The notes under the pieces are model-generated. The model searched no databases. It saw only the letters and a program-made list of their open reading frames with translations, and had not been told where the DNA came from. From Gammaproteobacteria bacterium (GTDB lineage Bacteria; Pseudomonadota; Gammaproteobacteria; Steroidobacterales; Woeseiaceae): a stretch of 37,842 nt of DNA. The position numbers and the translations under genes were made by a program. Positions 5,778-36,680 of the stretch are shown here, one piece after another. The stretch spans positions 1-37,842 of the forward strand of contig JAOTUB010000022.1 of the NCBI GenBank assembly GCA_029864095.1, written 5' to 3'. Each line of letters starts with the position of its first letter. The stretch's first letter is position 1.

Positions 5778-5816
5778 CTTATTTCCCCTTTGATCGAATT
5801 CATCAGTGCCCGACGT

Positions 5817-8800: not shown

Positions 8801-8945
8801 TAATGACCTGCACATCAGACAGGTCCGGTAGTGCATCGACCGGCGTCTGCCGCAAGGCATAGATGCCCCACCCGGTGAGAAAGAAGGTCACCACCAACAC
8901 GAGGAAGCGATTCTCGATCGACCAACGAATGATTGCCGCGATCAT
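5817..8945 (-). CDS. cusA: CusA-like heavy-metal RND efflux pump
   Basis: Proton-driven inner-membrane pump of 1042 residues, HME-RND subfamily, which exports Cu(I)/Ag(I) through the CusB adaptor and an outer-membrane channel. Twelve transmembrane helices are expected. The fourth carries the proton-relay acidic residues in [20 protein letters not shown]. The periplasmic cleft contains the methionines used by copper/silver pumps: [25 protein letters not shown] and [14 protein letters not shown] align by eye with the three metal-binding Met regions of E. coli CusA, which favours Cu/Ag over Zn/Co/Cd (CzcA) transport. Its ATG overlaps the cusB stop by 4 bases (ATGA). Length and ends look complete. 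Confidence 0.94.
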
Positions 8946-10186
8946 TGCGCATCCTCCCCCTTGTGGTCGCTATGATCGGCTGCATCCTCCATGCGTTGCA
9001 GCGCCGACTCGATATCGGATTCGGAGTCGATCAAGAACTGGCCCGATATGACGATGCGATCGCCGGCCGCAAGGCCGTCGAGTATCGCGACGCGTTGACC
9101 CGACTCGATTCCCGTCGTCACGACCTGGGACCTGAAGCGACCTTCGCCAAGTGACAAGACGACGCGGTCAGCGCTGCCACCACGAATCAATGCCTCGCGC
9201 GGGACGTGCACGACCGGTTCGGTTTCGGTACCAAACAAGGTGACTCGCGCAAACATGTTGGGACGCAGAACCTCGCCGTCGTTATCGAATCGAATGCGAA
9301 CTTTGAGCGTGCGCGTCGCCGCATCGAGCTCCGGGTAAACGTAGTCCACCACGCCCTGCCAGCGTCTGCCCGGTACATAGTCGAGTTCGACTTCCGCTCG
9401 CTGGCCGGACTCAACCCACGCTGCCTGGCGCTCGTAAACTTCCGCAATAACCCAGACACGATCGAGCCTCGCGACCGACATTACCTCGGTTGCCGGCGTG
9501 ACGAAGATGCCTTCGCGAACACCTAGATGAGCAATGACACCATCTGCCTCGGCATAGACGCGCACGCGCTGGCTAACGGTGCGCTCGTTGTCGAGTCGCG
9601 CAATCTCGCGAGCGGTCACGCCAAGCGCGGCGAGTCTGTCACGCGATGCGGTGCGGAGTGCGGAGTTGTTGCTGCGCAGCGCCGCAAGGTACTCCTGCTG
9701 CGCGTTAACCAGCGTCGGCGAATAGAGTTCGAATAGCAACTGGCCTTTTTTGACGGGGTCGCCCGTCGCGGTCGTCACCAGTTTTTCGATCCAGCCGTCG
9801 ACGCGCGTGTGAACGTGTTGCAGCGTGTCTTCGTCATAACCGATGTAGCCGACCGTCTCTATGCGCCGTGACAAGGGCCCGATCTCCGCCGGCGCCGTGC
9901 GCACTCCAAGATTGTTGACGACCGTGGGATCAATTTTCACCGTGCCGGGCGTCGCGTCTACTTCATCAGCATAAACCGGGACGAGATCCATTCCCATGGG
10001 CGACTTGCCAGGCTCGTCACGCCGGTAGTTCGGATCCATAGGTGCTACCCAATATAAAATTTCGCGCTCCGTAGTGTCGGTTACGCTCGGCGTCAGATCA
10101 CCGCCAACGGAGAACCACCGACCGATTCCGATCCCGAGTAGCAAAGCGACGGACACAACGACAGCCACGGTGATTTGTTTTCTCAT
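8942..10186 (-). CDS. cusB: CusB-like periplasmic adaptor (membrane fusion protein)
   Basis: Adaptor of 414 residues linking the RND pump to the outer-membrane channel. An N-terminal anchor or signal helix (about 5-25) is followed by a CusB-type metal-binding segment, [31 protein letters not shown] region (about 45-75), whose methionines bind Cu(I)/Ag(I) in the E. coli protein. Barrel-sandwich hybrid and helical-hairpin domains follow ([29 protein letters not shown] is split around 130-160), then a beta-barrel and membrane-proximal domain. The gene overlaps both neighbours by 4 bases (ATGA at each end), so cusC-cusB-cusA should be translationally coupled. The MPMG/MGMD methionines support copper or silver as substrate. 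Confidence 0.92.
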
Positions 10187-11454
10187 CGGGGTAATCCTCC
10201 GAGGTTTGCGAGGACGGCATAGCTCTGCGCGCGCTCGACTTGCAGACGAACATGATCAAGACGGGTGTTCAGATCGTCGATGAAACCGCGCATGACATCA
10301 GCGAAGTCGCCGGCCTCGCTTTGGTACGCAAGCAGCGCGGCCTGTGCATGGCTCGCAGAAAGACCCAGTATCGACGTCTCGTAGAGCACAACTCGCAGAC
10401 TAATGTCCTGCCAAAGCGCGTACTCGGCATCGAGCTGGCTCGATAGCCGTCGCAGCAGGTCATGCCTCTCAAATTCCGCTGCGCTGCGTTCGCTGAGTGC
10501 GGCCGCCAGCGATCGATCCTGTCGGTTCTTCCGAAACAACGGCATGTCCATCGTTACAGAAACGCTGACAAAATCTGAACGTGGTTCGCCGTTCGCCAGC
10601 TCGCCTTCACGATAGCCGTAACCCAGGTCGAGAGCCCAGCCAGGCTTCTTGCGCTCTTCGGCGACATGGACACCCGCGCTACTCGCCGCGACCCGAGCAT
10701 CCGCGGCGAGTACCGCCGGATGAGACGACAGGCTGGCGCGCAACGACTCGCGCGCGGGTAACCGATCCCACATTGGCAGCTTCGCCGCAACCGGGCGACG
10801 CGCATCCGCCCCGAGCCATTCCGACAACGCCGCTACTGCCTGCGCATGCCGTCTGTCAATCTCAATAAGCCGATCGTCCAGACGTCGCAGTTCGAGCTCG
10901 GCCCGCAGAACGTCCTGCTGGGTCTTGCGCCCAACCGAATACAGCGATCGCGAAATCTCGGCAAGATCCATGAAGAACGGCCGCGATTCGGTAACAACGT
11001 CGTGAGCGTGTTGCCAGTAGTACGTCTCGAGCCAGGCATTGCGTACACGCGTCAATACGTCCCGCGATCGCGCTGCAGCGTTCTGGTTCATCTCGAGCGC
11101 GAGCGACTCGTATCGCTGGAGGCTGAACTCGCGTGACTTGCCGGATGGAAAGCTCTGCCTGAAACCCAGCTGCGCCTGCGTCATTGCTTCGGTAGAGAAT
11201 CCGCCCGAGCTGATCGGGTAGTTCGCAAGACCAATACGCATCGTCGGGTCGGGCAGCTGGCCTGCGACGACCGCGCGTTCTCCGAGCGCGGCGGCGCGTG
11301 CCAGAAATGCTGCGTGGCCGGGCTCGCCAGCGAGCGCCCGATCTTCAGCCTCGGCCAGCGTCAGCGGTACGTCGTGCTGTGCCTGCGCGCTAGCAGCGAG
11401 CAGCAGCGCCAGCGCGAATATGTGTGAGGGCGTGCGCCCACGGAAAAACATCAT
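10183..11454 (-). CDS. cusC: TolC-family outer-membrane efflux channel (CusC-like)
   Basis: Outer-membrane factor of 423 residues that completes the tripartite metal efflux system. A type I signal peptide (about 1-25, ending ASAQA) precedes two OEP repeats of long helices rich in Ala, Arg and Glu, with the usual LTLAEAEDRAL start and the DPTMRIGLANYP segment of the metal-type channels. No lipobox Cys is seen, unlike E. coli CusC, so it is not obviously lipid-anchored. It is the first gene of the cusCBA run, 55 bases downstream of a small Cys/His-rich exported protein, and overlaps cusB by 4 bases. The symbol is given by position and partner genes; the family assignment is firmer than the symbol. 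Confidence 0.85.
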   Translation of the reverse strand: MMFFRGRTPSHIFALALLLAASAQAQHDVPLTLAEAEDRALAGEPGHAAFLARAAALGERAVVAGQLPDPTMRIGLANYPISSGGFSTEAMTQAQLGFRQSFPSGKSREFSLQRYESLALEMNQNAAARSRDVLTRVRNAWLETYYWQHAHDVVTESRPFFMDLAEISRSLYSVGRKTQQDVLRAELELRRLDDRLIEIDRRHAQAVAALSEWLGADARRPVAAKLPMWDRLPARESLRASLSSHPAVLAADARVAASSAGVHVAEERKKPGWALDLGYGYREGELANGEPRSDFVSVSVTMDMPLFRKNRQDRSLAAALSERSAAEFERHDLLRRLSSQLDAEYALWQDISLRVVLYETSILGLSASHAQAALLAYQSEAGDFADVMRGFIDDLNTRLDHVRLQVERAQSYAVLANLGGLPR

Positions 11455-13054: not shown

Positions 13055-14374
13055 TTATTCAGTTCCCCATTTGGTCTCGACGTTGATCCCGATTTTCTTC
13101 AGGAACATGGACGGCAGAATACCACCTGCGGATATGATGACCGCATCGTTCTTCAGTTGACCAATTTTTTCCCCGACTGCGATAACAACCGAGTCCGGGC
13201 GAATCTCTTTGACGTTCGAATTGAGCAGTACCCGCAGCCTGCCGTCGCTACGCATAGCTTCAACCTTGTCACGATTCTTCGGCTTTGCTCGGCTGAATGC
13301 AGCCGACCGATAGGACAAGGTCACAATCGTGCCCAGCTCTTCGGCGATACTCGTCGCGGCTTCCAGCGCGCTGTCACCGCCGCCGACGACCAATACGTTC
13401 AGGTTCTGATACTGCTCAGGGTCGATCAGCCGATAAGTCACTTTGGGCAAGTCCTCGCCCGGAACACCGAGTTGCCGTGGCGAACCTCGCCGCCCGATCG
13501 CGATCAATACCGCACGCGTGTCATATGTTGTCTTGTCGGTCGTCACGACGTACCCGGAGCCACTGGCTGCCGGCTCAATGGCGTCAACGCGCTCGTCGTA
13601 GTTGATTTTGACAGCGGTGTCGTTCTCGACTTTTTTCCAGAAATCGATCAGTTCTTCTTTCTGCACTTCCCTGAACTTCATTTTGCCCACTATTGGAAGT
13701 TCCGCTGGCTGTGTCATGACAAGCTTGCGCCGCGGAAAGTGGGCGACGGTGCCGCCGAGTTCTTCCTGTTCGACGGTTACGGATTTCAGGTTGGCCGCCT
13801 TGGCGGCCAACGTCGCGGCAAAGCCGGCCGGCCCGGCGCCTATGATGACCAGGTCGTGTTGATTGTTGTGCCCGGTCTTGAGCAACTTGATGATCGACTC
13901 CATCGCCTGCCGGCCCTGTTCGATCGCATTGCGGATCAAGCCCATGCCGCCCAGTTCGCCCGCGATAAATATGCCGGGCACATCCGTTTCGAAATTCGGT
14001 TTCACGACAGGAATGTCGATGCCGCGGGTCGAGGTGCCAAATACGAGCGTGATCGCACCTACCGGACAGGCTGTTTTGCAGGCGCCGTGGCCGATGCAGT
14101 CAGACGGACCGACTAGCCAGGCTTTTTTACCGATCATTCCGAGGACCGCATGGGCGTCCTGTTCCGGGCAGGCCTCAACACAGGATTTGCAGCCGATGCA
14201 AATCCTCGGGTCGATATCCGGGTGCAGCGTGGGCGGCTCCAGCATGCCCGCTTCGGTTGCTGCCTTGAGCGCTGCAAAACTCTCGCGTTCGAGGCGTTTG
14301 TGGCGACTCCAGTACCAGATCACGATCACGAGGACCGGAATTAAATACAGATAAGTAAGAAGAGTCCCTTGCAT
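13055..14374 (-). CDS. Membrane-anchored 4Fe-4S/FAD NAD(P)-dependent oxidoreductase with permuted thioredoxin-reductase-like fold
   Basis: Protein of 439 residues. An N-terminal transmembrane helix (about 5-22) is followed by a ferredoxin domain: Cys59, 62, 65, 69 (CIGCKSCVEACP) and Cys93, His96, Cys99, Cys103 (CIGHGACKTACP), so one canonical Cys position is His. The segment ETDVPGIFIAGELGGMGLIRNA (129-150, interrupted here as ETDVPGIF/IAGELGGMG) is the motif that normally closes the FAD site at the C-terminus of thioredoxin reductases, yet it lies before the FAD Rossmann motif GAGPAG (179-184) and the NAD(P) motif GGGDSA (331-336), and the C-terminus ends without it. The redox CXXC of thioredoxin reductase is absent. 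It is divergent from the multihaem operon. I infer electron transfer between NAD(P)H and the membrane, possibly to the neighbouring cytochrome b. Direction and partners are unproven. Confidence 0.85.
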   Translation of the reverse strand: MQGTLLTYLYLIPVLVIVIWYWSRHKRLERESFAALKAATEAGMLEPPTLHPDIDPRICIGCKSCVEACPEQDAHAVLGMIGKKAWLVGPSDCIGHGACKTACPVGAITLVFGTSTRGIDIPVVKPNFETDVPGIFIAGELGGMGLIRNAIEQGRQAMESIIKLLKTGHNNQHDLVIIGAGPAGFAATLAAKAANLKSVTVEQEELGGTVAHFPRRKLVMTQPAELPIVGKMKFREVQKEELIDFWKKVENDTAVKINYDERVDAIEPAASGSGYVVTTDKTTYDTRAVLIAIGRRGSPRQLGVPGEDLPKVTYRLIDPEQYQNLNVLVVGGGDSALEAATSIAEELGTIVTLSYRSAAFSRAKPKNRDKVEAMRSDGRLRVLLNSNVKEIRPDSVVIAVGEKIGQLKNDAVIISAGGILPSMFLKKIGINVETKWGTE

Positions 14375-14669
14375 CCGGGCTCGCTCGACAATGGCAGGCG
14401 AAAAAGCATAACCCGGAACGCTCGGTGCATATCGGGAATGGCTCTCATTACCTGGCTTATGTCGAGAAAAGCGGCGTAGCGTTACTCCGGCAAACAGGTA
14501 GCGGTCTCATTACAAACTCGTTTGTCGCAATTCCGAGACAGGCTACTGTTTTTTCTTCCTTGATTTTGTGACGCAGTGGAACCAAAACCCGTTCTGTAAC
14601 GTGTATCAATATGGACCGGAATGCGCCGAGCACTCCGACACCAATTTCATCGAAGAGGCCGGAGAAGCC
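14375..14669. promoter_or_regulatory. Divergent intergenic region upstream of the multihaem operon
   Basis: This 295-base gap separates the leftward Fe-S/FAD oxidoreductase gene from the rightward cytochrome operon and should hold promoters for both. A 9-base direct repeat TCTCATTAC occurs at 14443-14451 and 14505-14513 (62 bases apart). A weak sigma70-like pair, TTGTCG at 14522-14527 and TACTGT at 14544-14549 with a 16-base spacer, could serve the rightward operon. From 14568 (a GTG) the frame of the ccmI-like gene is already open, giving a possible 34-codon extension with no recognisable similarity. I treat it as leader because a good ribosome site precedes the ATG at 14670. Confidence 0.35.
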
Positions 14670-15518
14670 ATGTCATTCCTGTTCTGGAGTCTAGCCCTAT
14701 TAATGGTCGCAACAGCGACTGCGATCGTCGTTGTTCCGCTCGAGAGCGCCAAACCGTTGCTTGCCAATCCAGCCGCCCTTATCGCCGTGTGCGTCCCGCT
14801 GAGTGCGGTGGCGCTTTACGCATTGCTCGGGTCACCGCAAGCGATGACGGCCGAGTCGAGACAAGCAACACAGAATCCGCACGAAAACGCTTCGCCGGAC
14901 AGTGCCGAGACCGCACGCTCATACGGATCCGTCGCAAGCCTTGTCGATGGCCTTCGTGAGAAACTGGAAGAGAACTCTGAGGACGCCGGCGGCTGGTTGT
15001 TACTCGCAAAATCGTATCAACACCTCGGCCGCGATGCCGAAGCTCTGGACGCTTACAGCCACGCGCAGGCCCTGGGTAAAACCGACGTAACTCTCGACGC
15101 AAGCTTGCTGGGCCCGTCGCTGGCATCGCAGACGAACGTAACCGATTCGGGACCGGCTTTGCGCGGACGCGCCTCACTGTCTCGGGCGGCGGCGGCCCTG
15201 GTTCAACCCGGGGACACGGTATTCATTTTCGCCAAGGAATCGACACAGGACCGGCTGCCGGTTGTTGCGCTAAGAAAAACCGTCGCGGACCTGCCAATCG
15301 ATTTCGCGCTGACGGACAAGGAAATGATGGTTCCCGGCACGCATCTTGCGGACTTCGGTGAGCTGTTTATCACAGCACGAGTATCGCGCTCCGGAAACGC
15401 GTCCGACAACAGTCAAGGGCTCGAGGCCTGGAGTCCGCCCGTCTCGCCCGCAGCTGGCGAGGAGATCAACCTGATCATTGACGTGGCTTCGCGGTCAGCG
15501 GGTGACAGTGATGAATGA
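14670..15518 (+). CDS. ccmI: CcmI/CycH-like cytochrome c maturation factor
   Basis: Probable apocytochrome c chaperone, 282 residues, acting with the haem ligase at the periplasmic face. Two transmembrane helices (about 1-23 and 33-53) are followed by a TPR segment (VDGLREKLEENSEDAGGWLL to about 135), which matches the CcmI pattern in which TPRs bind the C-terminus of apocytochromes. A C-terminal CycH domain follows (GDTVFIFAKE.., LPVVALRKTVADLPIDFALTD divided at 198-217, VSRSGNAS). The ATG at 14670 has GGAGAA just upstream; the in-frame GTG at 14568 would add 34 residues. It leads the multihaem operon and overlaps the cytochrome b gene by 8 bases. No other ccm gene is nearby, so it looks like a dedicated helper rather than part of a full maturation operon. 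Confidence 0.85.
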   Translation: MSFLFWSLALLMVATATAIVVVPLESAKPLLANPAALIAVCVPLSAVALYALLGSPQAMTAESRQATQNPHENASPDSAETARSYGSVASLVDGLREKLEENSEDAGGWLLLAKSYQHLGRDAEALDAYSHAQALGKTDVTLDASLLGPSLASQTNVTDSGPALRGRASLSRAAAALVQPGDTVFIFAKESTQDRLPVVALRKTVADLPIDFALTDKEMMVPGTHLADFGELFITARVSRSGNASDNSQGLEAWSPPVSPAAGEEINLIIDVASRSAGDSDE

Positions 15519-16419
15519 GATTGCTCTCGAGCGGGTTTTCGCATCCGGCGGTTTCCGGACACGACTCTTCGGCACCCGAGAGACCCGCCAAAGCAGTACT
15601 TTTTACGGCTACTCGCTGACCCTGATCGCACTCGGTGCGGGCTGGTTACTGCGCGGCTATAACCTGATCGATCCGAAAGAGGGGCTCGGGTACTGGCTCG
15701 GCATCATCGGTGGTTCGATGATGCTGGTTCTCATCCTGTATCCGCTACGCAAAAGAGTACGGGCGCTACGTTTTCTCGGCAGAACAACGCACTGGTTTCG
15801 GCTACACATGGTTCTTGGTGTCCTAGGGCCGGTTCTTGTCCTGTACCACAGCAACTTCAATCTCGGCTCGTTCAACAGCCGGGTTGCCTTGTATTGCATG
15901 TTGATGGTCGCGGGCAGCGGCGTTATCGGCAAGTATCTGTACGCGCATATTTGCAACGGCCTGTACGGCGGCAAGTCGAGCCTTAAGGATCTGCGCAACG
16001 ATCTTCGCCAGTCGCTCGAAAAAAGTCACGGCCTTGCGACGCTGCTGCCGCAACTCACAACCAGGCTCGAGGCACTTGCTGCCGAGGCTCAGGGATGCAG
16101 CATTACCGGGTCGCTTGGCCTGCGTGCGAGCTTGTCCTGGTCGCTAAGGAAATACGTGATGTGGATTTCCTTGTCGCGAGCTGCGCGTGCGGAATTAAGG
16201 GCGCGCGCCGCCGCCTCGCCGACTGTCGCCCGAGATTTCCAAAGGTTAAGAAAGGCAAGCGCTGTCTACATCAAGAATTTCGTGCGCCTGACAACCCGCA
16301 TCGCTCAGTTCACGCTGTTCGAGCGACTGTCGTCCCTGTGGCATGTGCTGCACATGCCGCTGTTTTTCATGATGGTGATATCAGCCTTGCTGCACGTGCT
16401 GGCTGTTCACATGTACTAA
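15511..16419 (+). CDS. Predicted di-haem b-type membrane protein
   Basis: I do not recognise a named family. The 302-residue inner-membrane protein has about five hydrophobic helices (roughly 31-53, 60-79, 97-114, 124-146, 278-300) and a basic cytoplasmic or periplasmic loop between about 150 and 260. Two helices carry histidines exactly 14 residues apart: His99/His113 and His281/His295. An H-X13-H pair in each of two helices is the classic arrangement for two stacked haem b groups linked by bis-His ligation across a four-helix bundle (as in cytochrome b561 or NarI-like and ferric-reductase-like proteins). In context it could take electrons from quinol or from the Fe-S/FAD protein and pass them to the periplasmic multihaem cytochrome. 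The start at 15511 overlaps the end of the ccmI-like gene by 8 bases; an upstream start at 15478 is possible. Confidence 0.75.
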   Translation: MNEIALERVFASGGFRTRLFGTRETRQSSTFYGYSLTLIALGAGWLLRGYNLIDPKEGLGYWLGIIGGSMMLVLILYPLRKRVRALRFLGRTTHWFRLHMVLGVLGPVLVLYHSNFNLGSFNSRVALYCMLMVAGSGVIGKYLYAHICNGLYGGKSSLKDLRNDLRQSLEKSHGLATLLPQLTTRLEALAAEAQGCSITGSLGLRASLSWSLRKYVMWISLSRAARAELRARAAASPTVARDFQRLRKASAVYIKNFVRLTTRIAQFTLFERLSSLWHVLHMPLFFMMVISALLHVLAVHMY

Positions 16420-16442
16420 CCGAAGACAACAGTTCAACTGCA

Positions 16443-18014
16443 ATGATCGGAAGACCAATCGGATATGCGGGAATTCTGATGATGTTAGCCTGCTTCACCA
16501 GCCAGACCGCTGCGGCTCAGACCGTTGAGTCGCTGGTAATGCCCGGCCCGGTTATCAAAGGGCATGCCGACGTCGAAGCCGAATGCGCCGCGTGCCATAA
16601 GCGGTTTGATCGCTCGGCGCAGAATGGGCTTTGTCTCGAATGCCACGAGGACGTGGCGGCTGATGCGGATGCCGGTACAGGCTTTCACGGCAGGTCGGCC
16701 GATGTTGGTGACAGCACCTGCGCGACATGCCACACCGAACACAAGGGCCGCAACGCTAACATCCTGGGGCTCGACGAAACGACCTTTGACCATGCCTTCA
16801 CGGATTTCGAGCTGGTGGGCAAGCATCTCGAAGCAGAGTGTGCCGGCTGCCACGAAGCCGATGACAAACGTCGCAATGCGCCCGGCGAATGCGTCGACTG
16901 TCACCGCGAAGACGATGTGCACGAAGGCAATCTCGGCACCGAGTGCGCGGACTGTCACAACCCGACCGACTGGACCGACTCCACTTTCGACCATGACACG
17001 ACGGACTTCCCGCTGGTTGGCAAGCATCGTGACGTGGAATGCAGGGACTGCCACGAAGACCAGGCGCATCAGGATACGCCGATGGACTGCGTCAGTTGCC
17101 ACGCTGAAGACGATGCCCACGACGGCCGCAGCGGGGAAAATTGCGAGACCTGCCACAATCCGAGCGATTGGACCGACACGAGTTTCGACCATGCGAAGAA
17201 CACGGACTTCCCGCTCGAAGGCAAACACGCACAACTGACCTGCAACGACTGTCACAGCGAAGACCCGTGGGACGACGTTGACATGGACATGGAATGCGTC
17301 GCCTGCCATCTCGAAGACGATGATCACGAGGGTCATAACGGGACCGAATGCGGAGAATGCCACACGAATGAAGCGTGGACGGAGCGCCATTTCGATCACG
17401 ACAAAAGTACGGACTTCATCCTCAATGGCGCCCATGAGGAGGCGGCGTGTAACGACTGCCATGTCGAACCAATTTTCGAAACATCACCTGGCACGGCGTG
17501 CTCGTCCTGCCACCTTGAAGATCAGGTTCATGACGGACAACTCGGCGAGCGATGCAACGATTGCCATAACGAGACGGTCTGGAAGGATGCGCCGTTTTTC
17601 GATCATGATCTCAGCAGCTTTCCGTTACTGGGTGCGCACGACAATAATGAGTGCGACGCCTGCCACGAAACCCAACTGTTCGCCGACACGGCCAGTGAGT
17701 GCTTTGCTTGTCATCGTGACGACGATTCGCACAAAGGCGCTTTCGAAGATCAGTGCCAGTCATGCCATAACCCGGTCGCGTGGGACCTGTGGCTGTTCGA
17801 TCACAACACGCAAACGGACTTTGCGCTCGAGGGCGGCCACCTCGACGTTGCGTGTAACGATTGCCATCGCAGCTCCCTGGCTACCATGCGCACAACCGGC
17901 GACCACTGTGGCGACTGCCATCGGCCGGACGACATTCACGACGGAGAATTCGGAGCCAACTGTGGACGGTGCCACAGCGACAGCTCCTTCACGGAAGTGA
18001 GGTCACTGCAATGA
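16443..18014 (+). CDS. 21-haem c-type cytochrome
   Basis: Exported multihaem cytochrome of 523 residues with 21 CXXCH motifs, about one haem per 25 residues. The signal peptide (about 1-25, ending TAAAQ) follows an ATG 23 bases after the cytochrome b stop; the same frame is open upstream to 16095 but only inside the cytochrome b gene. After two leading haems, three-haem modules of about 64-69 residues repeat six times, and one haem closes the protein. Each module reads CxxCHNPxxW...FDHxxTDFPLxGKH....CxxCH....CxxCHxEDDxHxG, with three non-motif histidines (FDH, GKH, DDxH) that could be distal ligands, giving bis-His haems. The very acidic composition suits a soluble periplasmic electron carrier. 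It is translationally coupled to the giant cytochrome by ATGA (18011-18014). An extracellular location is also possible. Confidence 0.93.
   Translation: MIGRPIGYAGILMMLACFTSQTAAAQTVESLVMPGPVIKGHADVEAECAACHKRFDRSAQNGLCLECHEDVAADADAGTGFHGRSADVGDSTCATCHTEHKGRNANILGLDETTFDHAFTDFELVGKHLEAECAGCHEADDKRRNAPGECVDCHREDDVHEGNLGTECADCHNPTDWTDSTFDHDTTDFPLVGKHRDVECRDCHEDQAHQDTPMDCVSCHAEDDAHDGRSGENCETCHNPSDWTDTSFDHAKNTDFPLEGKHAQLTCNDCHSEDPWDDVDMDMECVACHLEDDDHEGHNGTECGECHTNEAWTERHFDHDKSTDFILNGAHEEAACNDCHVEPIFETSPGTACSSCHLEDQVHDGQLGERCNDCHNETVWKDAPFFDHDLSSFPLLGAHDNNECDACHETQLFADTASECFACHRDDDSHKGAFEDQCQSCHNPVAWDLWLFDHNTQTDFALEGGHLDVACNDCHRSSLATMRTTGDHCGDCHRPDDIHDGEFGANCGRCHSDSSFTEVRSLQ
16719..17975 (+). repeat. 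Degenerate three-haem modules in the 21-haem cytochrome
   Basis: Six successive modules of roughly 190-210 bases, each with three CXXCH motifs and the FDH, GKH and DDxH histidines, run from the third haem motif to the last one. Module lengths vary by a few codons (66 and 69 residues for the second and third), so these are old diverged duplications rather than recent tandem copies. They are distinct from the exact-register four-haem units of the next gene, although the first haem of that gene is preceded by the same FDH....GFELDGGH type of sequence. Confidence 0.8.
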
Positions 18015-21013
18015 CGAACAAAGCTCTGACATCCCGAATCCGAAACCTGGTTTTGACATCGCTCGGTGTATTTGGGCTGCTTGCCTCCGGCGGCGCCCCG
18101 GCACAGTCGGTATTCGACCACTTCAGCACTGGCTTTGAGCTCGACGGCGGACATGAAAACCTGACCTGCGAAGGCTGCCACGTCGGCGGCTCCTTCGGCC
18201 CGACTGATTCAGCGTGCAGCAGCTGCCATTCGCAAAGTGGCCTCGTACGGGCATCGTCGAAACCGGCCAGCCACGTTGCGACAACGGGTCAATGCTCCGA
18301 CTGTCACATTACGGCGAACTGGACCGTAATTACATTTGTCGACCACTCGTCCCTGACTGGCAGCTGCATCAGTTGCCACGATGGCGCCCAGGCGACCGGC
18401 AAAACACCGAATCACATTTCGTCGGGCGATCAGTGCGACGACTGTCACACGACGGCAGCGTGGCTGCCGGCAAACTTCGATCACTCGGGTATCGCCGGCA
18501 ACTGTGCAAGCTGCCACAACGGCGTCACGGCCACCGGCAAGAGTCCCGCACACATTCAAACGAGCAGCGTCTGTGAGGACTGCCACAACACAGCAACGTT
18601 TCAGCCGGCAGTCACAGTCGACCACACGCAGGTCCTGGGCGCTTGCGGTTCCTGCCACGACGGCGTCACGGCGACCGGCAAGCATCCAACGCATATCACG
18701 AGCGGCAACAACTGCGATGACTGCCATGCGACAACAGGGTGGCTGCCGGCAAACTTCGACCACGTAAACATCACGGGCAACTGCGTTAGCTGCCATAACG
18801 GCACCGAAGCCACCGGCAAGACGCCGAATCACATACAGACGAGCAACGTCTGCGAAGACTGCCACAACCCGAACGTGTGGACGCCGACGTTCAGTGTCGA
18901 CCATACCCAGGTGATTGGCACCTGCGGCTCCTGCCATGACGGCGTCACGGCAATCGGCAAACACCCGACGCACATTTCGAGCGGCAACAATTGTGAAGAT
19001 TGTCATGCGACCGCTGGCTGGCTGCCCGCGAATTTCAATCACACGAACATCACAAACAATTGTAGCAATTGTCACAACGGCACGGACGCTACGGGCAAGC
19101 CTCAGTCGCACATCCAGACGAGCAACGTCTGTGAAGACTGCCACAGCACCACCGTATTTGCGCCGGTCAACACCGTGGATCACACACAGGTCATCGGTGC
19201 CTGCGGCTCATGCCACGACGGCGTCACGGCAACCGGCAAGAACCCGACCCACATCACGAGCGGCAATACCTGCGACGACTGTCATGCGACGACAGCGTGG
19301 CTGCCCGCGAATTTCGATCATGTCAATATCACGGGCAACTGCATCGACTGCCACAACGGGGTGGATGCGACGGGCAAAACGCCAACGCATATTCAGACCA
19401 GCAACGTCTGCGAAGACTGCCACACCACCAATGTGTTTATGCCCGTATTTACCGTTGACCACACGCAAGTCATCGGCGTCTGCAGTTCCTGTCATGACGG
19501 CGTCACGGCCACTGGCAAGCACCCGACGCACATTTCGAGCGGCAATACCTGTGATGATTGCCACACCACGATTGCCTGGCGGCCGGCAACCTTCGACCAC
19601 ATCGGCATTTCGGGCAACTGTGTCAGTTGCCACAATGGCACCGAAGCGACCGGCAAGACGCTGACACACATACAGACCACCAATGTCTGTGAGGACTGCC
19701 ACAACACGACGGTGTGGATGCCTGCAATCACTGTCGATCACACACAGGTCATCGGCGCTTGCGGTTCCTGTCATGACGGCATCACGGCGACTGGCAAGCA
19801 CCCGACGCACATTACGAGTGGTAACACCTGCGATGACTGTCACTCAACCACAGGCTGGCTGCCCGCGAACTTCGACCATGTCAACATCACGGGCAACTGC
19901 TTCAGCTGCCACAACGGCACCGAAGCGACAGGCAAAGGCCCGACGCACGTGCAGACGACGAACGTCTGCGAGGATTGCCATACCAGCAATGTGTGGGCGC
20001 CTGTGTTTACCGTCGACCACACGCAGGTGCTGGGCGCCTGCGGCTCCTGTCATGACGGTGTCACCGCGACCGGCAAACACCCGACACACATCAGCAGTGG
20101 CATTAACTGTGACGACTGCCACTCGACGACAGGCTGGTTGCCCGCCAACTTCGACCACGTGAACATCACCGGCAATTGCTTCAGCTGTCATAACGGCGTG
20201 GATGCCACAGGCAAGGACCCGACGCATATTCAGACCAGCACCGTTTGCGAAGACTGCCATAACTCGAACGTATGGGTGCCGGTATTTACTGTCGACCATA
20301 CCCAGGTCATCGGTGCCTGCGGTTCCTGTCATGACGGCGTCACAGCAACCGGCAAACACCCGACTCACGTCACGAGCGGCAACAACTGTGACGACTGCCA
20401 CACGACGATCGCCTGGACACCCGCGAACTTCGACCACGTCAATATCGTGGACAATTGCTTTAGCTGTCACAACGGCACGCAAGCAACGGGCAAGGGCCCG
20501 CTGCATGTTCTGACGACCAACGTGTGCGAAGACTGCCACAGCCCGACCGTGTGGGTGCCTGTGACGACAGTAGATCATAACCAGGTCCTCGGATCCTGTT
20601 CGTCCTGTCACAACGGCACGACAGCAACGGGCCAGAATTCAGGTCACTTCAACACCGGGCAGGACTGCGGCCTGTGCCACGACCCGATCGCCTGGACACC
20701 GGCCGACTATCGTCATACAGGCCTGCCGTATGAGCCGCAGGATCACCGCGCCAATCTGGCGTGTACCGCATGCCATCAGTCGAATTCGGAGATCGTCAAC
20801 TGGCGGTTCCCGGCATTCCAGCCTGACTGTGCGGGTTGTCATGCCGGCGACTACAGATCGGGGCCGCACAAGAAGTATGGCGATACCAATTATACGGCCA
20901 GCGAGTTGCGCGACTGCTCGGGCGCCTGCCATGTCTATACGAATTCTTCGATGACGACGATTCAGAACAGACGGAGCGGTCCCGAGCATCGCATCTCCGG
21001 TGGTGATTTTTGA
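18011..21013 (+). CDS. Giant tandem-repeat cytochrome: 39 CXXCH plus one CX3CH
   Basis: Exported cytochrome of exactly 1000 residues. It starts at an ATG overlapping the 21-haem cytochrome stop (ATGA) with GAGG upstream; the signal peptide is about 1-32 (LASGGAPAQ). I count 39 CXXCH motifs and a final CSGACH (CX3CH), so up to 40 haems. Eight complete units of 93 residues (279 bases each) and part of a ninth run from residue 95 on, each with the motif order CxDCH, CGSCH, CDDCH, CxSCH and four non-motif histidines (VDH, THI, FDH, HIQ), enough for bis-His ligation of all four haems. The flanks differ: two haems in front, of the type found in the 21-haem protein, and a non-repeated tail with three. 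No anchor is seen. A long linear haem wire, periplasm-spanning or extracellular, is the natural inference. Partner and acceptor are unknown. Confidence 0.94.
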   Translation: MTNKALTSRIRNLVLTSLGVFGLLASGGAPAQSVFDHFSTGFELDGGHENLTCEGCHVGGSFGPTDSACSSCHSQSGLVRASSKPASHVATTGQCSDCHITANWTVITFVDHSSLTGSCISCHDGAQATGKTPNHISSGDQCDDCHTTAAWLPANFDHSGIAGNCASCHNGVTATGKSPAHIQTSSVCEDCHNTATFQPAVTVDHTQVLGACGSCHDGVTATGKHPTHITSGNNCDDCHATTGWLPANFDHVNITGNCVSCHNGTEATGKTPNHIQTSNVCEDCHNPNVWTPTFSVDHTQVIGTCGSCHDGVTAIGKHPTHISSGNNCEDCHATAGWLPANFNHTNITNNCSNCHNGTDATGKPQSHIQTSNVCEDCHSTTVFAPVNTVDHTQVIGACGSCHDGVTATGKNPTHITSGNTCDDCHATTAWLPANFDHVNITGNCIDCHNGVDATGKTPTHIQTSNVCEDCHTTNVFMPVFTVDHTQVIGVCSSCHDGVTATGKHPTHISSGNTCDDCHTTIAWRPATFDHIGISGNCVSCHNGTEATGKTLTHIQTTNVCEDCHNTTVWMPAITVDHTQVIGACGSCHDGITATGKHPTHITSGNTCDDCHSTTGWLPANFDHVNITGNCFSCHNGTEATGKGPTHVQTTNVCEDCHTSNVWAPVFTVDHTQVLGACGSCHDGVTATGKHPTHISSGINCDDCHSTTGWLPANFDHVNITGNCFSCHNGVDATGKDPTHIQTSTVCEDCHNSNVWVPVFTVDHTQVIGACGSCHDGVTATGKHPTHVTSGNNCDDCHTTIAWTPANFDHVNIVDNCFSCHNGTQATGKGPLHVLTTNVCEDCHSPTVWVPVTTVDHNQVLGSCSSCHNGTTATGQNSGHFNTGQDCGLCHDPIAWTPADYRHTGLPYEPQDHRANLACTACHQSNSEIVNWRFPAFQPDCAGCHAGDYRSGPHKKYGDTNYTASELRDCSGACHVYTNSSMTTIQNRRSGPEHRISGGDF
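18293..20716 (+). repeat. 279-bp in-register tandem repeat, eight full units plus a partial ninth
   Basis: The Cys codon opening each unit falls at 18293, 18572, 18851 and so on to 20525, that is exact steps of 279 bases (20525 minus 18572 is 1953, or 7 x 279) with no insertion or deletion. The register also holds through the partial ninth unit to about 20716. Each unit splits into two related halves of 47 and 46 residues. Units differ at many synonymous and some non-synonymous positions, so they are not a simple recent amplification or an obvious assembly stutter. Confidence 0.92.
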
Positions 21014-23454
21014 CCGGTATCAAACGACAATTTCATCGTTGGACTACCGCCACCGGTGTCGTTTTTCTGTCTGCGGCGGTGTCGGCTGGACCCGGGTTCA
21101 TCGACAGCTCCAGGGTCTCCGGCGATGCGTCCGGTGCAAAAATCGAAGTCGCGTTCAACTGCAAAGCGCAGTACCTGCGGCACGAGCCGGAGGGCGGTGG
21201 CGATCATCTGCGCATCTACCTCGATCCGACCAGCATCTGCAACGGCGTGTCCCCACTCGTCGCCAATTCGCGCTCAATATTGCGCCCGCTCAATGCCGAC
21301 CTGGCGCAACTGGCTGACCTGGAGTACGAAGGTAACTCAGCCGCGGAACCAGTGCTGACCTTCCATTTCACCCGGCCGGTCACATTCACCGTGGACGCAT
21401 CGAATGTCGCTTTCAATATTGTCGTCAATGTACAGGCGTCGGCAGGGCAAACCGCGCCGCCACAAACCAAACCGGATGTAGAACATCGGCAAGTCGCGCG
21501 GCCGAAACCCGAATCGCCGGAATATGTGATCAACCTCGCGTCCTTTCAGAGAATACCGACCACTGCCGATGCGCTCGGCCTGCAACCGGCAGCAAATCAG
21601 CGCATCGTCTATTCGGAAGCGGAGGTAGGTGGTGCCACCTGGTATCGCCTGCAGCTCGGCAATTTCGATGACGCGGACGCCGCCCTGAGTACCCTCGAAG
21701 AACTCAAACCGGACTTTCCGGGCGCCTGGATAGACAAATTTGATGCAGGCGGCGCATCAACCGAATTGTTCGTCAGTACCGAAGACGCGGAGATCGACGT
21801 GGTCGGTCAGCCTGCCAGCTCGGGTGATTCGAAAGTCGACGCACTGATGGACGAGGCCCGTAAACTGATGGTGGCCGGCGATGTTGCACGTGCCATTCAG
21901 GTTTACACGAAAGTCCTGCAGCTGCCGAATCATTCACGTAAACCCGAAGCGCAGGAATATCTCGCTCTGGCGCGGGAGAAAAAAGGGCAGATGGCGCACG
22001 CGAAAGCCGAGTACGAGCGCTACCTTGCGCTGTATCCGAACACCGAAGGTGCCGGCCGCGTGAGTCAGCGACTCGCCGCGATCCTCGCAACCGGCCGGCA
22101 GCTCAATGGCTCTGTCGGCACAATCAATGCCGGCGGCAGCAAACAGCGTATCGAACCCAGTAAGTGGAAAATGCAGAGCTACGTCTCGCAATACTACCGA
22201 CGTGACTCCAACCAACAGAACGATGAGAACGAGATCGTGAGCCAGTCGGCGCTCTACTCCGATGTAAATTTCGACGCACGGCGACGCGGCGAGCGCTTCG
22301 ACTTCAGCAGCCGACTGTCGGCCGGCTACCGCAACGACTTTCTCGATGAAGGCGAGGGGACCGGCAACCAGGCGCGGGTATCCTATGCATATGCCGACCT
22401 GGCAGACGCCAAATCCGGCTTGCGTGGGCGCATTGGCCGCCAGACCAGGAACACAGGCGGTGTTTTGGGGCGCTTCGACGGACTCAATCTCAGCTATAAG
22501 GCGACCGAACGTATTCTGGTCGACGCGGTTTTCGGCAAGCCCGCGTATTCGGCCACTGACGGAGTGGATTCCGAACGCTCTTTTTATGGTGCGAGCGTGA
22601 ACTACGGCCCGATCCTCGGCGAGCTCGAGCTCGGGGCTTTTTTCATTCAGCAGGACATCGAAGGCGTTGATGACCGTCAGGCGGTCGGCGCCGAGTTCCG
22701 TTATTTCGGGGAGAACCAGAGTGTCTGGGGGCTAGTCGATTACGACACGCTTTACGATGAGCTGGGCAGTGCCTTTTTGCAGGCGAACTGGCGCTTCGCC
22801 AACCGTTTGTCACTGTATGGATCCTACGACCGCCGCCATAGCCCGTTTCTGAGCACTGGCAACGGCCTGATCGGCCAGCCAGTCGAAACGTTTTCGGACC
22901 TACTCGAGATATATCCCGAGGAAGAAATACGCCAGTTCAGTATTGACCGCAGCCCCCTCAGTACGACCTACACCCTCGGCATGTCACATTCGCTGTCACC
23001 CAAAGTGCAAATCAATGCCGATATCAACGAGACGTCGGTTGACGCAACGCCGGAGTCAGGCGGTGTGCCGGGGATGCCAGCGACGACATTCAGGTATTTC
23101 GCGACGAGCATCGTGGCCAGCAGCTTGCTCAAAGAAGGCGACGTGTCGATATTTGGCATTCGCTATTCCGACTCCGATACGTCCAGGGTCATGACCCTGA
23201 CGCTAGATAGCCGCTTCCCGTTTGGCAAGACATGGCGAGTCAATCCACGACTGCGCGTCGATAGGCGCGAAGGTCTGGCTGATTCGAGTTACGAATGGCT
23301 TTACACGCCCGGCATTCGAATTCAGTATCGTCGCAGTCAGCGTTTCCGTGTTGAGCTCGAAGCCGGCAAGCAGTTCGCGCAGCGAGAATCGGTCGCTGCT
23401 GATTCAGACCGGGAATCATTTTTCTTCAATATCGGATATCAGGTGTTCTTCTGA
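21010..23454 (+). CDS. Outer-membrane beta-barrel protein with AMIN-like, SPOR-like and TPR domains
   Basis: Protein of 814 residues in the multihaem operon. It starts at TTG (21010), overlapping the previous stop (TTGA); the signal peptide is about 1-26 (LSAAVSA). An AMIN-like beta domain (about 27-142, with Cys51 and Cys77 able to form a disulfide) is followed by a SPOR-like repeat (about 171-245) and TPRs (276-357, DVARAIQVYTKVLQLPN). From about 385 to the end, alternating amphipathic strands rich in Tyr, Arg and Asp finish with NIGYQVFF, the terminal Phe typical of outer-membrane barrels. I infer the outer-membrane element of an electron conduit, with periplasmic domains docking to peptidoglycan or the cytochromes. 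No CXXCH is present. It could instead be a secretion or assembly porin for the giant cytochrome. Confidence 0.82.
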   Translation: MTGIKRQFHRWTTATGVVFLSAAVSAGPGFIDSSRVSGDASGAKIEVAFNCKAQYLRHEPEGGGDHLRIYLDPTSICNGVSPLVANSRSILRPLNADLAQLADLEYEGNSAAEPVLTFHFTRPVTFTVDASNVAFNIVVNVQASAGQTAPPQTKPDVEHRQVARPKPESPEYVINLASFQRIPTTADALGLQPAANQRIVYSEAEVGGATWYRLQLGNFDDADAALSTLEELKPDFPGAWIDKFDAGGASTELFVSTEDAEIDVVGQPASSGDSKVDALMDEARKLMVAGDVARAIQVYTKVLQLPNHSRKPEAQEYLALAREKKGQMAHAKAEYERYLALYPNTEGAGRVSQRLAAILATGRQLNGSVGTINAGGSKQRIEPSKWKMQSYVSQYYRRDSNQQNDENEIVSQSALYSDVNFDARRRGERFDFSSRLSAGYRNDFLDEGEGTGNQARVSYAYADLADAKSGLRGRIGRQTRNTGGVLGRFDGLNLSYKATERILVDAVFGKPAYSATDGVDSERSFYGASVNYGPILGELELGAFFIQQDIEGVDDRQAVGAEFRYFGENQSVWGLVDYDTLYDELGSAFLQANWRFANRLSLYGSYDRRHSPFLSTGNGLIGQPVETFSDLLEIYPEEEIRQFSIDRSPLSTTYTLGMSHSLSPKVQINADINETSVDATPESGGVPGMPATTFRYFATSIVASSLLKEGDVSIFGIRYSDSDTSRVMTLTLDSRFPFGKTWRVNPRLRVDRREGLADSSYEWLYTPGIRIQYRRSQRFRVELEAGKQFAQRESVAADSDRESFFFNIGYQVFF

Positions 23455-24053
23455 TGACAAAACCGAAATTGACTTCGGAGCTTTGCAAAGTGCTGTCCAC
23501 GGCAGTTGCCTTCCTGCTGCTGGCATCCTGCTCCTCGAGCGGTTCGTTGCTGCCCAGCAAATTGGATCCGCTAACTGCCGTGACGATCACATATAGCAAA
23601 GCGCCGCTCGTCTTCTACCGCAACGAATCGGGACGCGCCGCCCATGCGCGCGACTATGTTCACCTGGGCCCGCTCGAGGTGAACCGTTCCGGAACCTACA
23701 GTTATTACCTCTGGCTTGGTATCTGGAACACGATGCAGGATGCCAGGGGCGATGAGCCCCGCGACGGCTTCGATGCCATTGTCGTATTTGCGGACGGAGA
23801 ACCGCTGCCCCTTGAGATCGCGGGCTGGACGCCGGCAGCGATCGGGGCCAGCGAGCATGCTTACATGAAGCCGGTTGCATCGGCCGCAGACGCTTATTAC
23901 GCGGTTACGGTGGATCAGCTGCGAATGATCGCGGAGGCCACGGACCTGCGGGTTCAGTCAACCGGACCGCAAGGGAAATCGTACGAGCCCTGGGACAGCC
24001 AGGCCAGTGCAAAAGCCAGCCTAACAGCGTTTCTCAGCGCCTCGGTTTACTAG
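23454..24053 (+). CDS. Uncharacterised lipoprotein of the multihaem operon
   Basis: I do not recognise the family. The protein is 199 residues. The signal peptide has lipobox LLASC at about 22-26, followed by a Ser/Gly linker, so the mature protein should be lipid-anchored. Ser at +2 favours the outer membrane. The globular part has alternating beta-type sequence (AVTITYSKAPLVFYR, YSYYLWLGIW, DGFDAIVVFADGEPLPL) and no Cys or haem motif. The start ATG overlaps the barrel gene stop by one base (TGATG), so it is the last coupled gene of the operon. An accessory role at the outer-membrane conduit, such as barrel assembly or plugging, is inference from position only. Confidence 0.75.
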   Translation: MTKPKLTSELCKVLSTAVAFLLLASCSSSGSLLPSKLDPLTAVTITYSKAPLVFYRNESGRAAHARDYVHLGPLEVNRSGTYSYYLWLGIWNTMQDARGDEPRDGFDAIVVFADGEPLPLEIAGWTPAAIGASEHAYMKPVASAADAYYAVTVDQLRMIAEATDLRVQSTGPQGKSYEPWDSQASAKASLTAFLSASVY

Positions 24054-30018: not shown

Positions 30019-31242
30019 ATGGCACGACACGTAATTTTCGCAGCGCCCTTTTTCATGGATGCGACCTTGCGCTTCCTCCGCGGCGCTGCGGGCCTGCCGG
30101 GTGTTGCACTGACCGTTGTCAGTCAGGACCCAGAGGACCGTATGCCGCCTGACCTGCGCGCCCGACTGGCCGGACACTGGCGCGTTGCCGACGCACTCGA
30201 TCCCCAGCAGCTCGTCGATGCCGCGCGGCAACTCGAGGCACGAATAGGCCGCGCATCCGCCTACATTGCGCCGCTGGAGCAGCTGCAAGTGCCGCTGGCA
30301 CTGGCCAGGGAAGCGCTTGGCATCGATGGCCTGTCGTCGGCCGCGGCAAGAAACTTTCGCGACAAATCACGCATGAAAGACGTGCTTCGGGCAGCCGGGG
30401 TTCCGTGCGCGCGGCACACACTTGTCGCTGATCCTGAATCGGCGGAGGCGTTCACGCGGCGCGTCGGCTTCCCGGTGGTTGTGAAACCGCCCGACGGTGC
30501 CGGCGGCAAAGCCACGTTCAGACTCGATCGACCGCAGGATCTCGCTGTCTGGCTACAGCGCTATCCGCCAAATCCGGAGCGCCCGACACTGTTCGAGGAA
30601 TTCGTGCGCGGCACCGAACACTCTTTCGACAGCGTCTGCGTCGACGGACGGCCCGTTTGGCATTCGATTTCGCGGTACATGCCGTCGCCGCTGGAAGTTC
30701 TCGAGAATGAATGGATTCAGTGGTGTGTCCTGCTGCCCCGCAATATCGACGGCGCCGAGTTCGACCCGATACGTGAGTCCGGGTTTGCGGCTGTCGAGGC
30801 GCTCGGACTGCAGACCGGGCTCAGTCATATGGAATGGTTTCGGCTCGCGGACGGGAATATCGCCATCTCCGAGGTCGGCGCACGCCCTCCCGGGGCCCAG
30901 TTTTCAACCTTGTTGTCGTATGCTCACGACATCGATTTTTATGCGGCGTGGCCACGTTTGATGATATTCGGAGAATTCGATCCGCCGCGTCGCGAGTACG
31001 CCGCCGGTGCTGCTTACATTCGCGGACAGGGCCGCGGCCGCGTTCGCAACATCGCCGGGATCGACGATGTGCAGCGGCGTTTTGGCTCGATCGTTGTCGA
31101 AGCAAAACTCCCGCTTGAAGGGCAGCCGCCGGGCGACAGCTACGAAGGCGACGGCTACGTCATCGTGCGGCACCCCGATACCGACGTCGTGCAGCACGCG
31201 CTGCAGCAGATCGTCAGCACTATTCGCGTGGAGCTGCAGTGA
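30019..31242 (+). CDS. ATP-grasp ligase 1
   Basis: A 407-residue ATP-grasp enzyme of the carboxylate-amine ligase type, which activates a carboxylate as acyl phosphate and couples it to an amine or thiol. Features: pre-ATP-grasp domain about 1-110, the lid region PVVVKPPDGAGGKATF with the ATP-binding Lys, the EEFVRGTEHSFDSV acid pair, and the Mg-binding end SHMEWFR...SEVGARPPGA. The motif arrangement and the C-terminal RGRVRNIAGIDD / GYVIVRHPD closely parallel ATP-grasp ligase 3 at 35374-36591, so the two are paralogues. It is first of a coupled run: the GTG of the next gene overlaps its stop by 4 bases. Substrates unknown. Confidence 0.88.
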   Translation: MARHVIFAAPFFMDATLRFLRGAAGLPGVALTVVSQDPEDRMPPDLRARLAGHWRVADALDPQQLVDAARQLEARIGRASAYIAPLEQLQVPLALAREALGIDGLSSAAARNFRDKSRMKDVLRAAGVPCARHTLVADPESAEAFTRRVGFPVVVKPPDGAGGKATFRLDRPQDLAVWLQRYPPNPERPTLFEEFVRGTEHSFDSVCVDGRPVWHSISRYMPSPLEVLENEWIQWCVLLPRNIDGAEFDPIRESGFAAVEALGLQTGLSHMEWFRLADGNIAISEVGARPPGAQFSTLLSYAHDIDFYAAWPRLMIFGEFDPPRREYAAGAAYIRGQGRGRVRNIAGIDDVQRRFGSIVVEAKLPLEGQPPGDSYEGDGYVIVRHPDTDVVQHALQQIVSTIRVELQ

Positions 31243-33316: not shown

Positions 33317-33328
33317 TAGCTGGTAACC

Positions 33329-33356
33329 CGGACAACATCGCTTATTCGCCTATACT
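33329..33356 (+). promoter_or_regulatory. Candidate sigma70 promoter ahead of ATP-grasp ligase 2
   Basis: CGGACA at 33329-33334 and TATACT at 33351-33356 with a 16-base spacer (4/6 and 5/6 matches to consensus) lie in the 78-base gap after the first esterase. A start near 33363 would leave a leader of about 30 bases with the AAGGA ribosome site before the GTG at 33395. It may give the second gene pair its own transcript. Confidence 0.35.
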
Positions 33357-33394
33357 ATCGGTCAGAACCGCAAACCAAGAAGGATAATCAGACG

Positions 33395-35367: not shown

Positions 35368-35373
35368 ACCGCG

Positions 35374-36591: not shown

Positions 36592-36680
36592 CATTCGAAG
36601 CTTCGATTGCCCATGACTGAGCAGACCATGTGCCTGTCGCAGTAGAATAATACCCTTGCGCGCTGATCGATGGAGCGGAA
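36592..36680. promoter_or_regulatory. Divergent region between ATP-grasp ligase 3 and glgA
   Basis: This 89-base gap should drive both genes. It holds a perfect 12-base palindrome TCGAAGCTTCGA (36595-36606) directly upstream of the ligase 3 start codon, where it would overlap the ribosome-binding region, and a -10-like TAGAAT at 36643-36648 facing glgA without a clear -35 partner. GGAG at 36672-36675 is the glgA ribosome site. The palindrome length is within chance expectation for a window this size. Confidence 0.3.

Follow-up and report, generated by a model that had tools for sequence, protein, structure and literature searches.

We analysed a 37,842-nucleotide stretch of DNA (the window: contig JAOTUB010000022.1, positions 1 to 37,842 of the forward strand, assembly GCA_029864095.1) from a marine-sediment bacterium of the Woeseiaceae, whose metagenome-assembled genome (MAG) comprises 3.83 Mb on 253 contigs and is 95.8% complete. 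An earlier note had singled out positions 13055–24053 as a candidate electron conduit, encoded by a divergent unit in which six genes mostly overlap by 1–8 bases. We found that seven genes are open at these coordinates and that one, encoding a flavoprotein we call NOX, is divergent from a run of six that encodes, in order, a CcmI-like protein, an inner-membrane protein (IMP), two multihaem cytochromes (MHC1 with 21 and MHC2 with 40 haem motifs), a porin-like protein and a lipoprotein. The features are:

13055..14374, minus strand: NOX, membrane-anchored iron-sulfur (Fe-S)/FAD/NAD(P) oxidoreductase with a predicted circularly permuted YpdA/TrxR-like domain (from its domains and its co-occurrence with IMP)
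14375..14669, no strand: divergent intergenic region between the NOX and CcmI-like genes (consensus promoter and terminator scans)
14670..15518, plus strand: CcmI/CycH-like protein with two N-terminal hydrophobic helices, a weak TPR and Ig_CycH (Pfam; upstream GTG starts are also possible)
15511..16419, plus strand: IMP, PCC3-type inner-membrane protein, predicted di-haem b (published PCC3 motifs, hydropathy, charges)
16443..18014, plus strand: MHC1, 21-haem cytochrome of seven tri-haem modules, predicted periplasmic (motif count, spacing)
18011..21013, plus strand: MHC2, 40-haem cytochrome of di-haem units, predicted extracellular (motif count, spacing)
21010..23454, plus strand: porin-like protein with a signal-peptide-like N-terminus, a beta-rich N domain, SPOR, TPR and a presumed C-terminal outer-membrane barrel
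23454..24053, plus strand: lipoprotein candidate with a lipobox-like LASC (Cys26 conservation)

Of the five junctions between the six genes, four are overlaps, which bears out the coupling described earlier: the CcmI-like stop (15518) and the IMP ATG (15511) by 8 bases, the MHC1 stop (18014) and the MHC2 ATG (18011) by 4, the MHC2 stop (21013) and the porin-like TTG (21010) by 4, and the porin-like stop and the lipoprotein ATG (both 23454) by 1. IMP and MHC1 are separated by a 23-base gap, given an MHC1 start at ATG 16443. Consensus scans found no promoter- or terminator-like site in 14375..14669, and FNR-like matches within the window occur at chance level only.

The gene set resembles PCC3, which was named by He et al. 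2017 (PMC5566968) for clusters in which a porin and an IMP accompany two MHCs, one extracellular with a median of 34 haems and one periplasmic with a median of 21 (here and below, statements on published work refer to portions of the text of each paper). The published IMP has about 300 residues, five helices, SGXXG in transmembrane helix (TM) 4 and WX3HX13H in TM3 and TM5, and the larger MHC has low-complexity repeats (PMC5566968). In the window, a porin-like protein, a large outer MHC, an MHC of about 21 haems and an IMP defined by these motifs lie in one cluster: the IMP has 302 residues, with W95-x3-H99-x13-H113, S136-G137-xx-G140 and W277-x3-H281-x13-H295, MHC1 has 21 haem motifs, and MHC2 has 40 in a regular repeat. 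Because the IMP motifs, gene set and haem numbers fit the published description, we classify the locus, on sequence grounds, as a PCC3 variant whose four core genes fit PCC3, as the earlier note had suspected; this classification uses the published motifs, gene set and haem numbers and not alignment with named PCC3 proteins. Published PCC3 consists of four genes, as in the Sideroxydans lithotrophicus ES-1 loci Slit_0867-0870 and Slit_1446-1449 (PMC8788666), whereas the window adds NOX, the CcmI-like protein and the lipoprotein, and its host is a Woeseiaceae MAG, unlike the published PCC3 hosts. The running text on PCC3 in PMC5566968, PMC10734462, PMC8788666, PMC12442390, PMC13386937 and PMC12016527, taken without figures or supplements, describes a porin, two MHCs and an inner-membrane protein and does not mention a NOX partner.

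An alignment of 23 IMPs shows no variation in SGXXG or in either WX3HX13H motif. The full pattern, written as a regular expression, occurs in all 62 IMPs taken from loci that have both an IMP and a long NOX match. A simple hydropathy scan, in which TM1 falls below the threshold, together with the charge pattern gives five helices, with a basic loop of 133 residues between TM4 and TM5. Mean charges are +5.4 for loop TM2-3, +12 for loop TM4-5 and +2.2 for the N-terminus, and the remaining loops are near zero. This charge pattern suggests that loops TM2-3 and TM4-5 lie on the cytoplasmic side, which would place H99 and H281 towards the cytoplasm and H113 and H295 towards the periplasm. In NADPH oxidases and ferric reductases, the b-haem histidines are likewise arranged on a cytoplasmic and an exterior side. 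He et al. 2017 call the histidine spacing of the IMP FRD-like (PMC5566968); the window IMP matches no Pfam family at E<=0.01, FRD included, and the resemblance is one of histidine spacing only. Its best sequence match in the PDB (E 0.15) is at chance level, and a plasmid collection gave no match at 1e-5. IMPs in one Woeseiaceae and three Gammaproteobacteria MAGs are 65–82% identical. In genome G075, an additional, partial copy of the IMP (L045:10306-11094, minus strand) lies between NOX and the CcmI-like gene, apparently without an internal stretch.

NOX has an N-terminal hydrophobic helix, two Fe-S motifs and an FAD/NAD(P) domain, in agreement with the description in the earlier note. The second cluster motif is C-x2-H-x2-C-x3-CP, in which His replaces one Cys, and this His-containing form (CxGHGxCxxxCP) is present in 58 of 61 NOX sequences. 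The pieces are arranged as membrane helix, Fe-S, FAD C-terminal motif (AGELGG), FAD N-terminal motif (GxGPxG) and NAD(P) motif; the order Fe-S, AGELGG, GxGPxG is kept in 60 of the 61. Because profile positions 172-430, 121-159 and 53-109 map out of order, onto residues 2-259, 269-307 and 621-682 of a 789-residue flavoprotein at locus L043, NOX is, as far as sequence can tell, a circular permutant. Rejoining the pieces raised coverage of TIGR04018 from 1-264 to 1-314 of 316 and the score from 164.5 to 169.6 bits, and raised TIGR01292 from 85.9 to 94.8 bits; the gain is full coverage with a modest rise in bits, obtained without a shuffled control. The FAD/NAD(P) domain resembles the YpdA bacillithiol disulfide reductase (PDB 7a7b, E 9.7e-37), from which NOX differs in being permuted, in its added Fe-S domain and membrane helix and in scoring far under the YpdA cut-off (164.5 versus 339.9 bits). 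The L043 flavoprotein (L043:6976-11753) and its counterpart at L044 have the canonical order with Fe-S and cNMP-type parts and stand beside a distant IMP of about 25% identity, together with a 10-haem protein whose N-terminus is FHA-like (both the FHA and the cNMP labels were given by eye); we treated these IMPs as belonging to a different system.

In NADPH oxidases and ferric reductases, in bacterial NOX and in MsrQ with its flavin reductase, a cytosolic flavoprotein feeds a di-haem b membrane protein. Compared with the NADPH oxidase and ferric reductase type, the window has separate polypeptides, Fe-S motifs and a TrxR/YpdA-like flavoprotein. He et al. 2017 (PMC5566968) also find, in PCC4 and in other MHC clusters, an IMP of similar topology that often has another redox protein beside it. 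In contrast to the window, with its two MHCs of 21 and 40 haems, PCC4 lacks an outer MHC and has three small periplasmic ones (4, 5 and 10 haems); most of the other clusters are without a porin, whereas the window has a porin-like protein.

We searched 107 genomes of the family, 369 of the class and a wider phylum sample of 299. At class thresholds that were set after seeing the tables (IMP E<=1e-40, NOX E<=1e-100), 41 genomes have both genes, one has the IMP only, two have NOX only and 325 have neither (Fisher p 7e-51, uncorrected for phylogeny); NOX is thus present in 41 of 42 genomes with the IMP and the IMP in 41 of 43 with NOX. The 42 exclude weaker or partial IMP matches, the 43 exclude the NOX of G245 (2.0e-63, in a 780-residue frame), and both retain broken copies (NOX with an internal stop in G140; a split IMP with an internal stop in G369). 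The single IMP-only genome, G296, has a NOX fragment adjoining its IMP; of the two with NOX only, G283 has a porin and an MHC cut at the contig end, inside the cluster, and in G204 the NOX is broken and lies on a contig of 3.5 kb together with two small MHC frames. Five class genomes have two strong IMP loci, and each has two NOX matches. Within the family, 35 genomes have the main IMP type (IMP E<=1e-75, plus a split G039 copy at E 1.5e-51, limits likewise set once the tables were known), and NOX is found in 34 of them, the exception being G074 with a 112-residue NOX piece; G045 and G025 have NOX without a main-type IMP. In the phylum sample, 5 of 299 genomes gave an IMP match at E<=1e-10; they include the genome of the window, and four belong to its class.

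The two genes are also paired physically. One wrong flavoprotein (L048) was dropped from 62 pairs, and in 59 of the remaining 61 loci NOX and IMP lie on opposite strands. Sequence distances of NOX and IMP are correlated over these 61 loci (r 0.84, against 0.20 as the best of 2000 permutations, uncorrected for the species tree) and over the 32 loci outside the family (r 0.75), a correlation that shared ancestry alone can explain. NOX and IMP lie on separate contigs in G107, G192, G291 and G375; we considered co-selection of unlinked genes and rejected it for G192 and G291, where the NOX contig also holds a porin and the cluster is probably broken or reordered.

Forty flanked loci from other family genomes comprise 32 of the window type, six of a second subtype (L037-L042) and the two of another system, L043 and L044. 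All 32 window-type loci have the CcmI-like gene and the IMP, and 31 have NOX (it is absent from L031, which starts at a contig start; the 112-residue piece of L026 is counted, and L036 and L048 are cut by contig ends). MHC1 has 21 haem motifs in all 31 of these loci that are uncut at the edge, and MHC2, porin and lipoprotein are present wherever the stretch reaches. The class and phylum searches supplied 40 loci from outside the family; in 33 of them NOX is on the strand opposite to the IMP, with MHC1, MHC2 and porin following where uncut; a CcmI-like gene is found in 8 (E<1e-10) and the lipoprotein in 2. Because these last two genes are rare outside the family, we take the core to be NOX-IMP-MHC1-MHC2-porin, with the CcmI-like protein and lipoprotein predicted to be largely additions of the host's family. 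The earlier note had made its proposal depend on the homologues being conserved together, and we found the core genes together, in the same order, in the family and beyond.

MHC1 carries 21 CXXCH motifs in seven tri-haem modules of mostly ~67 residues, and MHC2 carries 39 CXXCH motifs plus one C-terminal CX3CH, 40 in all, in ~46-residue di-haem units that alternate in two types with spacings of 23/23/23/24 residues. Because the spacing is regular in both proteins, the motifs are not there by chance, and the haem numbers first proposed are upheld (a genome-wide tally of the CXXCH DNA pattern, 321 forward and 240 reverse versus 95 and 121 for the control, was not used as evidence). By eye and by hydropathy, both proteins have signal-peptide-like N-termini, that of MHC2 without a lipobox; MHC1 has a pI of 4.5. 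Spare histidines exceed haem motifs in MHC1 (25 for 21) and MHC2 (47 for 40), which would be enough for bis-histidine ligation. Neither cytochrome matched the PDB by sequence at 1e-3.

Across loci, all 69 uncut MHC1 cases counted have 18 (n=2), 21 (n=59) or 24 (n=8) haem motifs, a tally without the 10-haem protein of L043 and without loci, such as the window, for which fewer than two MHCs were listed; complete MHC2 genes have 5–67 CXXCH. MHC2 length is loose in comparison with that of MHC1, as would be expected if MHC1 must span the periplasm and MHC2 need not. The number of CXXCH in MHC2 is odd in 23 of 23 main-type family loci (window included), 6 of 6 short-type loci and 25 of 29 others, and because the numbers are mostly odd, MHC2 probably grows mostly by di-haem units; MHC1 would grow in steps of three haems. 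Three PCC3 loci (L082, L084 and L100) have an additional large MHC (69, 47 and 33 CXXCH) beyond MHC1 and MHC2.

In the porin-like protein, Pfam matched SPOR and TPR, two of the domains named in the earlier note; AMIN, also named there, is not confirmed, with matches in 0 of 18 homologues at E<=0.1. Support for the barrel is indirect: barrel-family matches are weak and occur in a few of the 18, and the C-terminus is GYQVFF. A homologue holds the same place in relatives' loci. Roughly counted, the barrel region has 28 candidate amphipathic segments, a figure that lacks a control and was not used. SPOR and TPR domains bind peptidoglycan and partners, and the barrel protein could be an envelope-assembly factor, with both cytochromes staying in the periplasm as an electron buffer. 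The ordinary signal-peptide-like start of MHC2, without a lipobox, and the AlphaFold2 model of the porin-like protein (window with L022-L024; mean pLDDT 41.5, residues 359-814 <50), in which the barrel region is not modelled, are in line with this. However, the core is the PCC3 set, and the 5–67 CXXCH of MHC2 against the 18, 21 or 24 haem motifs of MHC1 are expected if only MHC1 fits the periplasm, and we find a purely periplasmic role improbable. The genome encodes a type II secretin that could export MHC2.

The CcmI-like protein matches Ig_CycH at 78.9 bits, over the cut-off of 27, and TPR_CcmH_CycH at 32.7 bits, under the cut-off of 42. It is a second CycH-domain paralogue, as the genome has a ccm cluster elsewhere (CcmC-, CcmF-, CcmH- and CcmI-like, the CcmI-like gene on contig C82). 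Its proposed role as a maturation helper is half supported; as called, the protein is much shorter in several relatives (119–182 residues), and its gene is rare outside the family. The lipoprotein has a lipobox-like LASC whose Cys26 is invariant in 13 sequences, and it matches no Pfam family.

Taken together, these data suggest that the locus encodes a PCC3-type trans-envelope conduit with an NAD(P)H-linked pair at its cytoplasmic end, to which we assign a probability of roughly two in three. The likeliest reading is that NAD(P)H would feed PCC3 of this kind, either in place of quinol or in addition to it. Electrons would pass from NAD(P)H to the predicted FAD and then to the Fe-S clusters within NOX, tethered to the inner membrane; NOX would dock on the basic 133-residue cytoplasmic loop of the IMP, and the electrons would cross through two b haems, from H99/H281 on the cytoplasmic side to H113/H295 on the periplasmic side, and on to MHC1. 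The 21-haem wire of MHC1 would meet the porin at the outer membrane, and MHC2 would extend the wire outside the cell. The CcmI-like protein probably aids haem loading of MHC1 and MHC2, and the lipoprotein probably aids placing or anchoring of the outer part.

Several points weigh against this reading, beyond the basis of the PCC3 classification and the poor porin-like model given above. The AlphaFold2 model of the IMP (window with L021-L024) is also poor, with a mean pLDDT of 58.0. The six Woeseiaceae loci of the second subtype have an IMP 34–36% identical to that of the window, a 21-haem MHC1, an MHC with 5 or 9 CXXCH and a porin; five have a lipoprotein, the sixth locus being cut, four have a CycH-like open reading frame, and none has an adjacent NOX. 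In four genomes the fetched locus belongs to this subtype alone: NOX has no match at E<=1e-60 in G068, G072 and G085, and G025 has NOX on another contig. Thus, an IMP can occur without NOX; as for the inner-membrane entry proposed in the earlier note, NOX accompanies the di-haem b candidate in the main type and does not adjoin it in this subtype. Both subtypes occur together in G011 and in G074. In G021, the IMP scores like the short type and NOX has no match; this genome stands outside the short-subtype counts because its flanks were not fetched. The subtype would fit a scheme in which the IMP exchanges electrons with the quinone pool and NOX is an accessory inherited along with the cluster, for example a redox sensor or a reductase acting on something else. 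In Mtr, conduits are as a rule fed by quinol. A quinone link is also what He et al. 2017 propose for PCC3 (PMC5566968). In contrast, the near-complete co-occurrence of NOX and IMP, their divergent pairing across many families and the large basic cytoplasmic loop of the IMP argue against this, and we regard the quinone link with an accessory NOX as unlikely.

The direction of electron flow bears on a further possibility, that electrons from solid Fe(II) or another external donor move inward and NOX reduces NAD(P)+ for CO2 fixation. This is also counter to the outward scheme above, and several data point to it. In the class, RuBisCO is found in 29 of 42 PCC3 hosts versus 152 of 327 others (p 0.008, uncorrected); in the family, the figures are 8 of 40 genomes with a PCC3-like IMP versus 5 of 67 without (p 0.07). 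RuBisCO lies about 2.7 kb from NOX in G064 (L115, C154) and G039 (L117, C14), with a LysR regulator beside it in both and a phosphoribulokinase-family gene also in G064, and uptake is therefore favoured there; in L115 and L117, a gene for a universal stress protein and a flavin amine-oxidase-like gene lie between RuBisCO and NOX. Expression of the IMP in the second PCC3 copy (copy 2) of Sideroxydans sp. CL21 rises significantly when iron oxidation is possible (PMC12442390). However, PCC3 genes are down-regulated on Fe(II) in ES-1 (PMC8788666), and RuBisCO had no match at E<=1e-20 in the 95.8% complete host genome. Outward flow would be downhill and aided by the membrane potential, whereas inward flow to NADP+ would be uphill and against it. 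We consider an uptake module distinctly unlikely here; net outward flow is likelier, a leaning that we confine to the host organism.

The locus shares its overall logic with MtrCAB, MtoAB and PioAB, which have a porin with periplasmic and, in Mtr, extracellular multihaem cytochromes. In Mtr, the quinol dehydrogenase is CymA, a role that the IMP and NOX would take in the window. An Mtr-type identity was rejected, as the earlier note had expected: the window porin has no match to TIGR03509 (MtrB/PioB) at E<=0.01, MHC1 (20.9 bits) and MHC2 (150) are both below the TIGR03508 cut-off of 192.2 bits, and MHC2 (15.6) is below the TIGR03507 cut-off of 209.3 bits. A genuine mtrC-mtrA-mtrB set sits elsewhere in the same genome, on contig C244 (L114:7791-13108), and the host is therefore predicted to have two conduits, one PCC3-type and one MtrCAB. 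A further protein with 10 CXXCH adjoins that set (L114:13294-15657). mtrABC has been reported for Woeseiaceae (PMC12175321) and MtrABC in Woeseiaceae MAGs (PMC11442690); the idea that the former is misnamed PCC3 was rejected, given the genuine set here and the agreement of PMC11442690. MtrB is present in 54 of the 107 family genomes: 28 of 40 with a PCC3-like IMP (E<=1e-50) and 26 of 67 without (p 0.0026, uncorrected for phylogeny). The two share a contig, ~20–50 kb apart, in G035:C77, G048:C50, G064:C154, G086:C6, G097:C3 and G104:C39, possibly as an electron-transfer island.

Elsewhere in the window, positions 3534-11454 hold genes for a metal-transporting P-type ATPase and RND (CusABC-like) efflux with heavy-metal-binding domains, adjoined by a two-component system (1081-3103). 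A cluster at 30019-36741 may serve a cyanophycin-like or peptide pathway; it encodes esterases, ATP-grasp ligases and a peptidase S51-like protein.

The core design of PCC3 was already known; new, as far as we searched, appear to be the family form with two extra genes and the near-obligate partnership with a predicted permuted flavoprotein. More tentatively, and at somewhat less than even odds, all PCC3 may be NAD(P)H-coupled conduits in which an NADPH-oxidase-like pair drives an unbroken haem wire leading from the cytosol out of the cell, rather than quinone-linked iron oxidases, with the NOX-less subtype secondarily quinone-linked. If so, the nucleotide pool would be discharged, or charged by strong donors, bypassing quinone. 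PCC3 is found in many lithotrophs and sediment bacteria, with its function undemonstrated in the six papers whose PCC3 text is cited above. An NAD(P)H enzyme as its inner partner would alter what is expected of the electron source, the energetics and the direction. The step pattern, with the periplasmic wire in threes and the outer wire mostly in twos, would make wire length a testable trait, and some Woeseiaceae would gain a second conduit beside MtrCAB.

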